64,000 nt of DNA. Origin: Acidobacteriota bacterium (GTDB taxonomy: Bacteria > Acidobacteriota > Terriglobia > Bryobacterales > Bryobacteraceae). The notes below the pieces were generated by a model. The model was given only the letters and a program-made list of their open reading frames with translations, made no database searches and had not been told where the DNA came from. The position numbers and the translations under genes are program-made. How positions within the stretch are numbered: the stretch's first letter is position 1; each line of letters begins with the position of its first letter. Of the stretch, positions 54,341 through 59,611 are shown one piece after another. The stretch is from assembly GCA_017307505.1 (NCBI GenBank), contig JAFKEE010000029.1:62001-126000 (forward strand), given 5' to 3'.

Positions 54341-54458
54341 GGAAAAAGGTGTCCTAACGGAGGGAAGGCCCTGTGGCGGGGAGCCGCAGGGCCTTCTTCA
54401 GAGGGGCTTGTGAGGGGCTGGGTCCCCTCACGGGATGTTTATAGTCGATGACGACTTT
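54341..54458 (+). ncRNA. Three-hairpin structured RNA element, copy 1
   Basis: Order: GGAAAAAGGTGTCCT lead; hairpin P1 with 9-bp arms 54365-54373/54387-54395 extended by a U-G and GGC/GCC around loop GGGGA; linker CAGAGGGGCTT (54399-54409); hairpin P2 with 8-bp arms 54410-54417/54424-54431 and loop CTGGGT; GGGATG; hairpin P3 AGTCG-ATGA-CGACT (54443-54456). The same order recurs in copy 2 with stems changed in sequence but still paired. I do not recognise it as a known riboswitch, sRNA or REP class. Orientation is inferred from the terminator after copy 2. Confidence 0.7.
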
Positions 54459-54523
54459 AATTGTCTTTATATACTGCACATCGCGTGCCAAAGCATGTTA
54501 AACGGGGAATCAACAACTTACAG

Positions 54524-54587
54524 TGCACCTGGTTGGGCTTGCCCCCACACAACTGGGGCAAGGGGTGGGTGAATCTTAACAGGTGCA
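54524..54587 (+). ncRNA. Nested hairpin between the two element copies
   Basis: An outer stem TGCACCTG (54524-54531) with CAGGTGCA (54580-54587), both perfect over 8 bp, encloses an inner stem CTTGCCCC (54538-54545) with GGGGCAAG (54555-54562), also perfect over 8 bp, with a 9-nt loop. Two nested perfect 8-bp stems within 64 nt are unlikely by chance. It may be part of the same transcript as copies 1 and 2 or a separate RNA. Confidence 0.55.
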
Positions 54588-54700
54588 TAAACCAACTGGG
54601 TTATATTTCGCATCTCAATATCCGATTAGCGGAATAGCCCCAACCATCGCCCATTTGGGGACACAGCAGGCCCAACGCAGGATGGCAGGAGAGGTGGGGG

Positions 54701-54818
54701 AAAAGGTGCCCTGAAAAGCGTAGAGGCCGTGTGGCTGGGGACCGCACGGCCTCTGTCAGAGGGGCTTGCAAGGAGCTGGGCCTCCTTGCGGGGATGCAAT
54801 TAAGTCGATGACGACTTA
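54701..54818 (+). ncRNA. Three-hairpin structured RNA element, copy 2
   Basis: Same layout as copy 1: AAAAGGTGCCCT lead; P1 with 10-bp arms 54722-54731/54745-54754 and loop containing GGGGA; linker CAGAGGGGCTT (54757-54767), identical to copy 1; P2 arms 54768-54775/54782-54789 with loop CTGGGC; GGGATG (54791-54796); P3 TAAGTCG-ATGA-CGACTTA (54801-54818). Against copy 1, two P1 pairs and three P2 pairs differ by double compensatory changes. An intrinsic terminator follows 29 nt later, upstream of the histidine kinase gene. Confidence 0.72.
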
Positions 54819-54846
54819 TGTTGATCTAAGTATGCATTACGGACAT

Positions 54847-54867
54847 AAGACTCCGCAAGTCTTTTTT
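54847..54867 (+). terminator. Intrinsic terminator after element copy 2
   Basis: AAGACT (54847-54852), loop CCGCA, AGTCTT (54858-54863) and then a run of T to 54867. It has both a stem and a U-tract in the plus direction only. It ends 78 nt before the histidine kinase ATG, so it either terminates a small RNA containing copy 2 or acts as an attenuator for the kinase gene. Confidence 0.65.
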
Positions 54868-54945
54868 ATATTATTACTTCTTCATTGTTGCCACATCTCC
54901 TCACACTCGCAGCCCACTGTACGATTGAGTAAAGAGAACCTGCCA

Positions 54946-56133
54946 ATGACTGACGATTCTCACTATCTGCCCTCCGCCCGCCTCCCACGCGCCGCCGTGC
55001 GCGATCAGGGGGCAACGGCGCTTGGGCAGGAGACGCTGCTGAAGCTGCTGGACACTTCAAGTGATTCCCTGGCCGTGCTCAATCCGCAACGCCAGATTGT
55101 CTACTGCAACGAGACCTGCTGGCGTCTGGCCGGACTTGCCAGCCTCGACGAGGCCATTGGAATGAGGCCCGGTGAGTTGCTGCGCTGCGTCAATGTGAAG
55201 CAGCGGCCGGGCGGTTGCGGCACCACGGACAACTGCAGGTTCTGCGAACTGGCCCAGGCGCTGGTGAAAGGCCAGCAGGGTCTCACCACCGCCGGCAGGT
55301 GCCTCATCGAGTCAGGAGACGGCGGGCTGTCCTGCGATACCGAATACCGCGTGCAGGTCACGCCCCTGCCGGAAGCCGGCCCGGGCTGGGTCTGCTACCT
55401 GATCGCAGACATCAGCGCCGAGAGCAAGCGCAGGGCTCTCGAAAGAACCTTCTTTCACGACATCCTGAACCGGGCCTTCTCCCTGGAGGGCGTCGCCGAG
55501 GCCCTGGCCGACGACACGCTGTCGCCCTCTGAGCGCAGTGAGTTCAACGCCATGCTGGGGGTGGCCGTGCGAGGCATGACGGAGGAACTGAGAAGCCAAC
55601 GTATCCTGCTCGCCGCCGAATCGGGCGAATTGGCCGCCGATCCGCTGCCGATTAACAGCCTCACCGTGCTGCGCGATGCCATGAGAACCTGCGCGACGTT
55701 CTGGTTGGAAGAATGCGCCCGGCTCGAAATCCAGGGCGGCGCCGAATCCATCGAATTCGAGAGTGACCCTGCACTGCTCGGCCGCGTTCTCATTAACCTC
55801 CTGAAGAATGCAGTGGAAGCATCCGGCCCGGGCCACTCCATCACGGCGGGCTGCCGCCGGGAGAGCGACGAAGTTCACTTTTTTGTCCACAACCAGCAGG
55901 CAATGGAGCCGACCGTGGCCGCGCGCGTCTTCCAACGGGCCTTCTCTACCAAAGGACGTGGCCGCGGCCTGGGCACCTATGGCGCCCGTTTGTTGACGGA
56001 ACAATACCTGGGTGGCCAGATTTCGTTCGAATCAGATCCTGGTTCAGGCACGACCTTTCTGGTCCGGCTGCCTGTGCGCAAGCGGCCCAGCCAGGTGGAA
56101 CACCACGAACCGGCTGTTGGCGCCGCCCGCTAG
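54946..56133 (+). CDS. PAS-domain sensor histidine kinase with a four-cysteine cluster
   Basis: A 395-residue soluble kinase with no membrane helix. The PAS domain (about residues 30-160) contains DSLAVLNPQRQIVYCNETCWRLAG and a cysteine cluster at 81, 91, 97 and 100 (C-x9-C-x5-C-x2-C, including GGCGTTDNCRFC), suited to binding a metal or Fe-S centre or to thiol redox sensing. The phospho-acceptor is probably His171 in FFHDILNRAFSLEGVAEAL. The ATPase domain has the N-box NLLKNAVEAS (284-293) and STKGRGRGLGTYGARLL. The start ATG 54946 has only a weak purine stretch upstream. Longer in-frame starts lie inside the RNA element and are unlikely. No response regulator is adjacent on this strand. Confidence 0.87.
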   Translation: MTDDSHYLPSARLPRAAVRDQGATALGQETLLKLLDTSSDSLAVLNPQRQIVYCNETCWRLAGLASLDEAIGMRPGELLRCVNVKQRPGGCGTTDNCRFCELAQALVKGQQGLTTAGRCLIESGDGGLSCDTEYRVQVTPLPEAGPGWVCYLIADISAESKRRALERTFFHDILNRAFSLEGVAEALADDTLSPSERSEFNAMLGVAVRGMTEELRSQRILLAAESGELAADPLPINSLTVLRDAMRTCATFWLEECARLEIQGGAESIEFESDPALLGRVLINLLKNAVEASGPGHSITAGCRRESDEVHFFVHNQQAMEPTVAARVFQRAFSTKGRGRGLGTYGARLLTEQYLGGQISFESDPGSGTTFLVRLPVRKRPSQVEHHEPAVGAAR

Positions 56134-56816
56134 TCGAGGTCGAAGCCCCGGCGCAGCATTTGCACGCTGAGGACCCCCTCGACTGCCTGCAGTGTCTTGA
56201 TCAGGTTCGGTGGCGTCTGCCCGGCCGCCGGACGAACCCGGTACGCGCCGTCGAGCGAAGCGCCCTGTTTGCCGGTCCCCATCGAGACCAGTTCCCGCTC
56301 CTTGAGCAGGCTCCCGATGGCCGCAGTGACGATTCCGTCCAGGTCGCAATCCAGCCCGGTCCGAACCTTGAGAATATACTCAGGCTCCGGATTCGTCGAA
56401 GCCTTCGCCCGCAACAGCAGCAGCGCCTCGGCCAGGGCCACCACTCCGAGCCCGATCGAGGCCACCCAGAGGCTCCGGGCCCCCACCGCCATTCCGACGA
56501 TCACCGCGAAGATCACATAGGCCGTATCCTGCGTGTCACGCACCACGGTGCGGAACCGGACAATCGACAGTGCCCCTACCAGGCTGAACGCCCGCGCCAC
56601 ATTATCCCCAATCACCTGCGTCACCATGGCGATCAATACGCAAAGCAGCAGCAGGGTCGTGGGGAACTGCAGCCCGGTGTTGAGTTCCCGGCGAGTGAAC
56701 TTGTAGATGCCGCCGATGAGCGCCCCGAAGAACAGCGCCGACATCAGCCGGATGAAGACATCAAACGGCTCGACGTGCGGACCATTGGCGAACGGGGTGA
56801 TCAGAAAGTCACGCAC
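56130..56816 (-). CDS. DUF4956 membrane protein
   Basis: A 228-residue inner-membrane protein of the DUF4956 family. Four hydrophobic segments occupy roughly residues 18-140 (MSALFFGALIGGIYKF, TTLLLLCVLIAMVTQVIG, YVIFAVIVGMAVGA, LWVASIGLGVVALAEALLLL), with the conserved cytoplasmic GALSIVRFRTVVRDTQDTAYV between them. The C-terminal 80 residues form a soluble ferredoxin-like domain. DUF4956 proteins regularly occur with VTC and CotH genes, as here. The first 16 bp overlap the end of the VTC gene. The role is unknown; a membrane partner for the VTC polymerase is the usual proposal. It is convergent with the PAS kinase gene. Confidence 0.9.
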   Translation of the reverse strand: MRDFLITPFANGPHVEPFDVFIRLMSALFFGALIGGIYKFTRRELNTGLQFPTTLLLLCVLIAMVTQVIGDNVARAFSLVGALSIVRFRTVVRDTQDTAYVIFAVIVGMAVGARSLWVASIGLGVVALAEALLLLRAKASTNPEPEYILKVRTGLDCDLDGIVTAAIGSLLKERELVSMGTGKQGASLDGAYRVRPAAGQTPPNLIKTLQAVEGVLSVQMLRRGFDLD

Positions 56817-57583
56817 GGCGCACCTCCGGCAGTGAATCCGGCCGGCTCAGTTTCGACCAGGCTGCCAAACCGCCCCAGGTTCAGCGCTTTCCCGGCCGAA
56901 CGGTATTTCGACGAATTCCGCGGATTCAACGAGAAGTCATCCATGAACCGCTGGAACAGCGCCGGCACTTCACCGCGGTACTTCAGCTCCAGCACGATCC
57001 GGTCTTCCGACAGGGAAACGGTGGGCCGCCGGGCCTCAAACGCGAAACCCTGCACCGGCACCGCGCGCACGGCGTCGTCGAGGGTCAGACGGATGGGTCC
57101 GGACTCCGTCATGCCCATCCGGGCCGTGCGCGCGTATGCGATCTGGCACACCGGCCGCAGGCCGCGCGCCAGAATGCGTCGGTGGAACCAGTAGCCGGCC
57201 CAGCCTCTCTTCGCTTCCGGTTGGGCCAGCTTCGAAATCTCCCCCATCTCGATCTGGGAGCGTTTCTTGCAGACGAGGCCGCGGCTCTTCATCTTCCGTT
57301 CCAGGAAGATCACGTCACTCGACCCGTACCGCCGGACCCTGTATTTGCCGCGCCCAAACGAACCCGTGCGGGCCAGCACATCGAACTCCGCCGTATCGAG
57401 ATAAAGCGTCGTGATGGAGTAGGCGTCCTGATCGGCGCCGCGGCCGTGCGGGTCGGCCAGCATGTTGCGCCGCGCCCACGAGCGCACCTCCTCGGCCAGC
57501 GGCCGTCCAATCACGAACTTCAGTTCGGAGGCGAACTTCCTGAACTGTCCCGGATCGATGGAAGGTGATTGCAAGGTTTCCAT
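56801..57583 (-). CDS. VTC-domain polyphosphate polymerase-like protein
   Basis: A 260-residue protein with the VTC tunnel-domain pattern: ELKFVIGRPLAEEVRSWAR, YSITTLYLDTAEFDVL, KYRVRRYGSSDVIFLERKMKSRGLVCKKR, and the late VLELKYRGEVPALFQRFMDDFSLNPRNSSKYRSAG. The alternating basic residues (RVRRY, ERKMKSR) and Glu residues (ELK, LERK, LELKY) line the ATP/polyphosphate tunnel in yeast Vtc4. A related function, making or binding an anionic polymer from ATP, is expected. No SPX or membrane domain is present; the DUF4956 protein could anchor it. It starts 18 bp after the CotH gene ends and overlaps the DUF4956 gene, so the three form an operon. Confidence 0.92.
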   Translation of the reverse strand: METLQSPSIDPGQFRKFASELKFVIGRPLAEEVRSWARRNMLADPHGRGADQDAYSITTLYLDTAEFDVLARTGSFGRGKYRVRRYGSSDVIFLERKMKSRGLVCKKRSQIEMGEISKLAQPEAKRGWAGYWFHRRILARGLRPVCQIAYARTARMGMTESGPIRLTLDDAVRAVPVQGFAFEARRPTVSLSEDRIVLELKYRGEVPALFQRFMDDFSLNPRNSSKYRSAGKALNLGRFGSLVETEPAGFTAGGAPCVTF

Positions 57584-57601: not shown

Positions 57602-59611
57602 CTACGGCTGCTGCATCGGAGGACGGCCGCCAGGCGGTCCAAAACCGCCGGGCATGCCGCGCGGCGCCAGGTCCCGGTTGATCCCAGACCGGACCTGCTC
57701 CTCCGTCAGAGAACCAGTCTTGGCTCCGCCCCAGTTGTCAAACCACTTGGCGAAGCCGCGCGTGAATTGTTCGCGCGTGATCGGCGCATTCTGCGCAGCG
57801 CCCATAGCCTGCTGGAACGCCGGAGCCAGGAACATGGCCGGCCCCATACCGCCCGGACCACCAGGACCGCCGAATCCGCCCCGGCCACCCGGACCTTTCT
57901 CATTCCCCGTCTGCCCCTGCGACTTGCCCGCCAGTTGCGCCGTCACCGATTGCGATCGCGGACCCACAAAGCCCTTGATGGGCTTCATGCCGCCCATCCG
58001 CGGACCCATCCTGCCCCCAGGACCGCCGCCCGGACCCTCACCCGGACCACCCGGCCCCATTCCCCCGCCCGGAAAGCTCGCCGGCTCTACCTGCTGGCCG
58101 GAGACCGCCTTCTCAAATCGCGCCAGTTTTTCCGGCGATTCCTCTTGCACCGCCGGACGGATGAGCGCCGCCGTCTCATCCACCTGCTTCGAGATCCGCC
58201 CCGGCTCACCCACGGTCCGGTTGATCTCCCCCAGTTTGGCCAGGTACAGCTTCTTGAACTCCTCCACCTGGAACACCCGCTCCAGGAAGCGGTTCTGCCC
58301 CTGCCACGGCCGCTGGATGCTCAAGTCCGTGCTGCCGCCCATTGGGAACTGCCCGAACGAGTGGTCCAGATCCCAGGGCAGGAACAGGAACTTGTTCGAC
58401 TGCGGGTGCAGGTAAACGTAGTAGTTCTGCCCCATCGAGAGCAGGCTGTCCATGTTGGAGAGCCAGACGGTCGCCGCCATGAACCGTGCGAATTCGTCCA
58501 GATCCAGGTAGCTCTTCAATCCCGAAGCAAAGGCCGCATCGTTCGCCGAACTCACGAACCGCGCAAACTCGATTACCCGCTTCTTCTGTGCTTCCGTGAG
58601 GTCCTCCTTCGGGTCGTACATCCGCTCGTACTTCGACCAGTCGTCCCCCATATCCGTAAAGAGGTTCTGGCCCACCGGCTTGAAGATGGCACCGTCGCGC
58701 GTCCCAAACCGCTCCTCGGCAAAGTGTTTGTCGATGTCCTCCACCACGGAGTACAACCCAAAGTATTTCCGGTCATACTTACCCGGCACGGTCACGAACA
58801 CGCGGGCATACGACGTACGCGGCGAAGGCACACCCGCATCCCGGAAAAGCCGGTAGGACAGCGGCTCATTCATCCAGCTCGCATCGGTGACATTGTTGTG
58901 CAGATTGAGCTTGGTCAGGCCCGCCAGCTTTTGCCCCTTGACGTATTTGTTCAGGTCGAGCTTCAGCGACTTCTTGATGGAGTTGCGCGACTCCATATAG
59001 GAGTTGTTGCCCTTGAAGCGCACCGCCACGTCGCGAAACTGGGTGCCGTCGAAATCCAGATCAGCGTGTACATATTCAAAGTTGATGCCCGACATTGCCG
59101 AGATGCCGTTCCGCTTGCTGGTCCCGTTGCGCGGAGGCATTCCTGGTCCTTCTCCGCCGGGACCGCCGGGCCCGGGCATCGGTGCCAGGGTATTCAAGCC
59201 CACCCGCAGCTGTTCCGCCGTCAGTTTCCCGGTCTTCTGTTTGTCCCAGGCTTCAAACCAGGCATTGCCCAGACCTGTGAACTCCGCCGCGGACAGCTTT
59301 CCATCCTTGTTCGTGTCCCCCTTCATAAAGGCCGGCGCGACGAACATCGCCGGGCCAAACCCGCCGGGACCGCCCGGTCTGCCAGGACCACCCGGTCCAC
59401 CGGGAAACTCTCCGCCGCCCTTGGGCTCAATCGCGTTCCACTGGTCGGCCGTGAACTTCAGATGGATCGTCCAGATCCTGGCATTCTGGAAGACCTCAGC
59501 CGGTTTCGCGGGAGGCGCCGCAACCGCCAGACCAGCCAACCCCAGCACGGCCGCGGCAGCCCAGAGCTTACGCCCACCGGCTGTGCGCTTCGGATTTCGT
59601 TCGTGACTCAT
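57602..59611 (-). CDS. CotH-family spore-coat-kinase-like exported protein with EF-hands and Gly/Pro-rich linkers
   Basis: A 669-residue exported protein (signal LWAAAAVLGLAGLAVAAP). The CotH kinase-like domain is split: its first strands (RIWTIHLKFTADQWNAIEP) are followed by a Gly/Pro-rich stretch and an inserted EF-hand pair (GDTNKDGKLSAAEF, then a weaker KTGKLTAEQ). The core resumes at VRFKGNNSYMESRNSIKKSLKLDLN, with GLYSVVEDIDKHF and FLFLPWDLDHSFG. A second Gly/Pro/Met-rich region and a degenerate EF-like copy (APITREQFTRGF, KTGSLTEEQVRSG) close the protein. CotH proteins phosphorylate secreted proteins using ATP outside the cell. Calcium or magnesium control through the EF-hands is plausible. 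First gene of the CotH-VTC-DUF4956 operon. Confidence 0.9.
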   Translation of the reverse strand: MSHERNPKRTAGGRKLWAAAAVLGLAGLAVAAPPAKPAEVFQNARIWTIHLKFTADQWNAIEPKGGGEFPGGPGGPGRPGGPGGFGPAMFVAPAFMKGDTNKDGKLSAAEFTGLGNAWFEAWDKQKTGKLTAEQLRVGLNTLAPMPGPGGPGGEGPGMPPRNGTSKRNGISAMSGINFEYVHADLDFDGTQFRDVAVRFKGNNSYMESRNSIKKSLKLDLNKYVKGQKLAGLTKLNLHNNVTDASWMNEPLSYRLFRDAGVPSPRTSYARVFVTVPGKYDRKYFGLYSVVEDIDKHFAEERFGTRDGAIFKPVGQNLFTDMGDDWSKYERMYDPKEDLTEAQKKRVIEFARFVSSANDAAFASGLKSYLDLDEFARFMAATVWLSNMDSLLSMGQNYYVYLHPQSNKFLFLPWDLDHSFGQFPMGGSTDLSIQRPWQGQNRFLERVFQVEEFKKLYLAKLGEINRTVGEPGRISKQVDETAALIRPAVQEESPEKLARFEKAVSGQQVEPASFPGGGMGPGGPGEGPGGGPGGRMGPRMGGMKPIKGFVGPRSQSVTAQLAGKSQGQTGNEKGPGGRGGFGGPGGPGGMGPAMFLAPAFQQAMGAAQNAPITREQFTRGFAKWFDNWGGAKTGSLTEEQVRSGINRDLAPRGMPGGFGPPGGRPPMQQP

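Follow-up and report, generated by a model that had tools for sequence, protein, structure and literature searches.

The duplicated three-hairpin element described here raises a simple question: is it an RNA, and if so, from which strand is it made and what might it act on? The window (the whole stretch of 64,000 nt of Bryobacteraceae DNA that was analysed) contains two copies of this element, each ~115 nt long (54353-54463 and 54711-54823), with starts 358 nt apart and a gap of ~240 nt between them; they lie between an epimerase gene and a PAS/HATPase histidine-kinase-like gene. The copies are 78% identical across a 69-nt core. They do not differ at all in the linker CAGAGGGGCTT (54399-54409 and 54757-54767), nor in a second block, AGTCGATGACGACTT (54443-54457 and 54803-54817). 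A preliminary description of this DNA had reported two copies some 240 nt apart with a common layout, an invariant linker, and five double changes that preserve stem pairs; layout and linker were located as described, and all five changes are correct when read off the sequence.

The best explanation, which as a whole we hold to be fairly probable, is that these are tandem minus-strand small RNA (sRNA) genes with their own promoters, whose products would pair with Shine-Dalgarno (SD) sequences. Its sequence-based components, namely the existence of a family, the paired structure, the placement of promoters and terminators, and a link to the Rfam family Acido-1 (RF01686), are supported here. The predicted parts of the two copies are given below, with matches to R1, a covariance model of the minus strand built from 25 relatives.

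54346-54464, minus strand: sRNA copy 1 (sigma54-type), predicted transcript; R1 match 54353-54463 (minus, 111 bits), folding z-score -7.17; putative +1 at ~54464, 12 nt past the -12 element, and a tentative 3′ end at a T5 run near 54346
54443-54457, minus strand: copy 1 hairpin H1, loop UCAU (P3 of the preliminary description)
54410-54431, minus strand: copy 1 hairpin H2, loop ACCCAG (formerly P2); 8 of 8 pairs doubly changed among members
54399-54409, minus strand: copy 1 unpaired linker AAGCCCCTCTG, near-invariant in members, candidate anti-SD seed
54364-54396, minus strand: copy 1 hairpin H3, terminator-like (formerly P1); 12 of 12 pairs doubly changed
54714-54824, minus strand: sRNA copy 2 (sigma70-type), predicted transcript; R1 match 54711-54823 (minus, 121.3 bits), folding z-score -7.35; putative 5′ end at ~54822-54825, T4 tract at 54714-54717
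54802-54818, minus strand: copy 2 hairpin H1, loop UCAU
54768-54789, minus strand: copy 2 hairpin H2, loop GCCCAG
54757-54767, minus strand: copy 2 conserved linker AAGCCCCTCTG
54722-54754, minus strand: copy 2 hairpin H3, followed by the T4 tract

The two-copy element is not a chance product. In the seed alignment of the 25 relatives, made by MAFFT without reference to structure, pairing holds in 92.2% of cells and double changes occur in 17 of 27 pairs, a level that none of 500 shuffles reaches. In a 131-member alignment, which was fitted to the structure and so is biased towards it, these values rise to 95.1% and 27 of 27, again with none of 500 shuffles reaching any measure; covariation is 0.482, whereas shuffles give 0.172 and sliding gives no more than 0.10. 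Pairs thus covary among relatives, and loops and linkers are kept while stems vary, as expected from the selection on RNA structure that had been proposed from the two copies. The preliminary description had seen a genuine selected RNA element and most likely assigned it to the wrong strand.

The family is widespread within Bryobacteraceae. A DNA search of 200 Bryobacteraceae genomes gave matches in 61, and pattern matches include Paludibaculum, Solibacter, and other members of the family. A covariance-model search, as the preliminary description had suggested, located members in 99 of 237 Bryobacteraceae genomes, spread over 46 of 76 genera; nearly all of these genomes have 1-4 copies, often in tandem. 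The window's own genome (9.4 Mb) has only two good R1 matches, the window copies themselves. None were found in 20 genomes from other families of the same order, and across the phylum R1 gave only weak, unconvincing matches, with no convincing member beyond Bryobacteraceae. Four of these weak outside matches (L048, L049, L052, and L067) were rejected: they show no apparent sigma54 or sigma70 promoter at the expected position, and they resemble coding DNA or ordinary terminators.

The preliminary description recognized no known family. This stands for the window, which has no Rfam match at the gathering threshold or at E-values up to 5, and RF01686 finds nothing in its genome; it does not stand for the distant members, which match RF01686 at 50-86 bits, several of them above threshold and without exception on the reverse of the R1 strand. 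Membership was set at 50 bits or more to the Rfam covariance model, which the window copies do not reach. No function has been assigned to Acido-1 itself, which Weinberg et al. (2010; PMC2864571) described as a probable noncoding RNA from Acidobacteria. The Rfam model has matches in 52 Bryobacteraceae genomes, 30 above the cut-off, and none in 297 genomes sampled across the phylum; convincing matches to either model are confined to Bryobacteraceae in the genomes sampled. R1, although built without Acido-1-type loci, detects them at ~34-52 bits (E-values 1e-6 to 1e-11), indicating homology through intermediates; wherever overlapping matches of the two models were checked, they lay on opposite strands. 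Acido-1 and the window family share the order H2-linker-H3 and, read on the reverse strand of the Rfam model, a CUCUGAG linker core and a CCCAG loop. Acido-1-type members have H2 loop UCCCCUCCC and linker ACCCCUCUGAG. The window copies differ in having an extra 5′ hairpin (H1) and an H2 loop RCCCAG rather than UCCCCUCC, and their branch often has a sigma54 promoter. By sequence, the copies thus represent a divergent branch within the family that includes Acido-1.

The conserved unpaired stretches suggest how such RNAs might act. As proposed here, two paralogous tandem genes would each be transcribed leftwards from their own promoter, copy 2 from a sigma70-type promoter and copy 1 from a sigma54 promoter preceded by an IHF-like site and by repeats that resemble activator sites. 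Each would produce an RNA of ~110-120 nt with three hairpins, of which the last would serve as terminator. Among the unpaired stretches, CAUCCC, the CCCAG loops, and AGCCCCUCUGA are the most conserved; they are complementary to G-rich SD-like sequence, and the Acido-1-type H2 loop UCCCCUCC is an SD complement. These C-rich stretches may pair with the G-rich ribosome-binding sites of mRNAs, which would block their translation. We consider this anti-SD mechanism slightly better than an even call; we infer from the DNA that the genes are transcribed, where exactly the RNAs begin and end, that IHF and an activator bind, and, most of all, what the RNAs pair with.

A search with one pattern, the linker complement CAGAGGGGCT, gave 21 matches in the genome (two of them the copies themselves) vs. 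14 for a control pattern, and no conserved target was found with it. The ribosome-binding region of lysA holds an exact CAGAGGGGCT in two close species (L245, G000:C32:384983; L264, G145:C1:4741870). Other genomes with a readable lysA start showed no such site, and lysA was rejected as a conserved target since the site is not kept beyond those two species. Two Hfq-like matches in the genome exceed the Pfam cut-off, a strong one (96 bits) and a weak one (30.8 bits), at these positions:

G000:C15:201391-201579: Hfq-like match (L235)
G000:C49:311544-311699: Hfq-like match (L236)

The main rival to SD pairing keeps the same minus-strand sRNA, and has it titrate a protein that binds the repeated C-rich CCCAG/CCCC motifs, as a sponge like CrcZ or CsrB. 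Three or four short C-rich repeats in loops and linkers, kept while the stems vary, are what such a sponge might look like, and the failure to find a conserved mRNA target fits it as well. One argument against it is the small number of motifs within ~110 nt; another is that the Acido-1-type loop complements the SD sequence, and we know of no protein with specificity for CCCAG/CCCC motifs. A titrating role seems unlikely, if less so than the other alternatives considered below.

The anti-SD reading has a described parallel. NfeR1 of Sinorhizobium has three hairpins with ultraconserved anti-SD motifs and variable stems, and has been shown experimentally to silence mRNAs by covering the translation start (PMC10746234). 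It and the alpha-r14 and cuckoo RNAs are found in Alphaproteobacteria (PMC10746234; Reinkensmeier and Giegerich, 2015, as cited there); the related CcsR RNAs share a transcript with a DUF1127 gene (PMC10253847), and are clustered, as the tandem copies are here. Three hairpins, variable stems, and conserved unpaired C-rich motifs are common to both groups. The motifs themselves differ, however (CCUCCUCCC in NfeR1/alpha-r14/cuckoo RNAs, CCCCUC/CCCAG in the window family), as do the promoters. CCUCCUCCC is absent from the hairpin loops of window-family members and no sequence relation was seen, limiting the comparison to one of RNAs that may work alike.

The preliminary description had taken the plus strand as the RNA, with G-rich AGAGGGGCU linkers and CUGGG loops. 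Rfam models Acido-1 in this orientation, and both strands fold better than shuffles. A few U-G pairs of a plus-strand RNA would be A-C on the minus strand; taken alone, the counts of G-U and A-C (96 vs. 79, with 53 of the 79 in two columns) do not decide between the strands. Folding is stronger on the minus strand: over the same spans, z-scores for copies 1 and 2 are -6.2 and -6.0, vs. -4.7 and -4.5 for plus. The predicted minus-strand transcripts reach -7.2 and -7.4, with three separate hairpins and open linkers, an arrangement found in the minus-strand fold only; the plus strand pulls the linker into other pairings. The upstream features predicted for the minus-strand genes are:

54475-54490, minus strand: sigma54 promoter of copy 1, TGGCACGCGATGTGCA, with -24 GG and -12 GC, by sequence reading a close fit to consensus
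54508-54520, plus strand: IHF-like site AATCAACAACTTA, 17 bp upstream of the copy 1 -24 element
54566-54572, minus strand: candidate activator site TCACCCA, upstream of copy 1
54829-54858, minus strand: sigma70-like promoter of copy 2, TTGCGG-18-CATACT, weak in the window (7/12)
54861-54877, minus strand: A/T-rich UP-element-like stretch upstream of the copy 2 -35; similar A/T tracts occur in other members

Among the 128 members with sufficient flanking sequence, 63 have a sigma54 site (score of at least 9/12) on the transcript side vs. 3 on the opposite side, with shuffles at ~1.5%; over different counts, sigma54-type members number 63-75 of ~129, copy 1 included. Nearly all of these sites lie 25-31 nt ahead of the model start, a fixed position that would place the transcription start a few bases upstream of H1. 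The genome has an rpoN gene. Upstream of sigma54-type members, the IHF-like sequence WATCAANNNNTTR is matched at 8-9 of 9 positions in 39 of 74 (3.1 expected from shuffles), and TCACCCA/TGGGTGA is present in 33 of 74 (1.8 expected); these heptamers would suit the sites of an enhancer-binding protein. Members lacking a sigma54 site mostly have sigma70-like hexamers at about the same distance, although such scores are less telling alone, as shuffles often reach 8/12. Orthologues of copy 2 within the genus have TTGCGG-18-CATAAT or TTGACG-19-AATAAT. Where copies stand in tandem, in the window's genus and in a related genus, the sigma70-type copy precedes the sigma54-type copy; the window's copy 2 is slightly under the sigma70 threshold of that analysis.

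T-runs of at least 4 follow the last hairpin in 54 members, vs. 10 for the opposite strand. Copy 1 has none directly past its last hairpin, with the next T5 ~15-20 nt further on. Because promoters and terminators both point that way, the transcribed strand is most likely the minus strand, the reverse of that first proposed. The plus-strand reading was rejected on this evidence, and has only a slight chance of being correct; that these are minus-strand, trans-acting sRNAs we regard as highly probable from the sequence.

The same signals are found in the Acido-1-type members. T[TGA]GACA-17-TANNNT is present on the R1 strand of 42 of 44 distinct elements (a de-duplicated count), beginning 44-48 nt before CATCC, and T-runs of at least 4 lie past the last hairpin in 39 of the 44, vs. 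3 with one at the opposite end. On the Rfam strand, sigma70-like scores all stay below 9 in these elements, most of which were counted twice in that comparison. With nearly all promoters (42 of 44) and T-tracts (39 of 44) on the reverse strand, the strand of RF01686 is most likely reversed. The spacer between the -35 and -10 elements of the Acido-1-type promoters is also conserved (approximately AACAGATCTGAAACTG; L192, L193, L196-L202, L276-L305), pointing to a possible regulator site within the promoter itself.

Sibling sRNAs with sigma54 promoters recall the Qrr sRNAs of Vibrio, which have several siblings, sigma54 promoters, and an NtrC-type activator; here, the activator is represented by candidate sites only. 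No sequence or structural resemblance to Qrr was noted. If the family spans Bryobacteraceae and takes in Acido-1 (on the wrong strand since 2010), siblings with the same seed that are split between sigma70 and sigma54 could be constitutive and signal-dependent arms of one anti-SD regulator, which would then be a candidate for wide-ranging post-transcriptional control in Acidobacteriota. This larger proposal is tentative, and we would put it a little short of even.

Conserved loops in an intergenic element, near a gene in some members, might instead belong to a cis-regulatory leader, riboswitch, or transcription attenuator of neighboring genes, and the preliminary description had hinted at a ligand-binding RNA. 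The neighbors are diverse in both orientations, however: no neighbor family is common to more than 10 of ~95 loci, so nothing widely shared points to a function, and the next downstream gene is oppositely oriented at 58 of 96, with no consistent same-orientation downstream gene among the loci examined. The element also has its own terminator, and each tandem copy its own promoter. Diverse neighbors and own promoters argue for free-standing trans-acting sRNA genes rather than riboswitches, making cis-regulation very improbable. A REP/MITE-like repeat or mobile hairpin element, suggested by the tandem duplication, is hardly credible given 1-4 copies in nearly all genomes with diverse neighbors, promoter-linked positions in 46 genera, two good matches in 9.4 Mb, and a conserved linker.

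No study of Bryobacteraceae small RNAs turned up in the literature searched. An orphan Rfam family gains a new branch in the window copies, a probable strand correction, two promoter classes, a likely start and end, and a proposed mechanism that can be tested; its range within Bryobacteraceae widens from 52 genomes (Rfam model) to 99 (R1). The correct strand determines which probes and deletions will work.

Around the window copies, the copy 2 promoter and the kinase-like gene (54946-56133, plus strand) diverge from a short intergenic stretch (54829-54946). Beyond this, a DUF4956 protein and a VTC-domain protein are encoded side by side (56133-57583), with a CotH kinase gene nearby (57605-59611).
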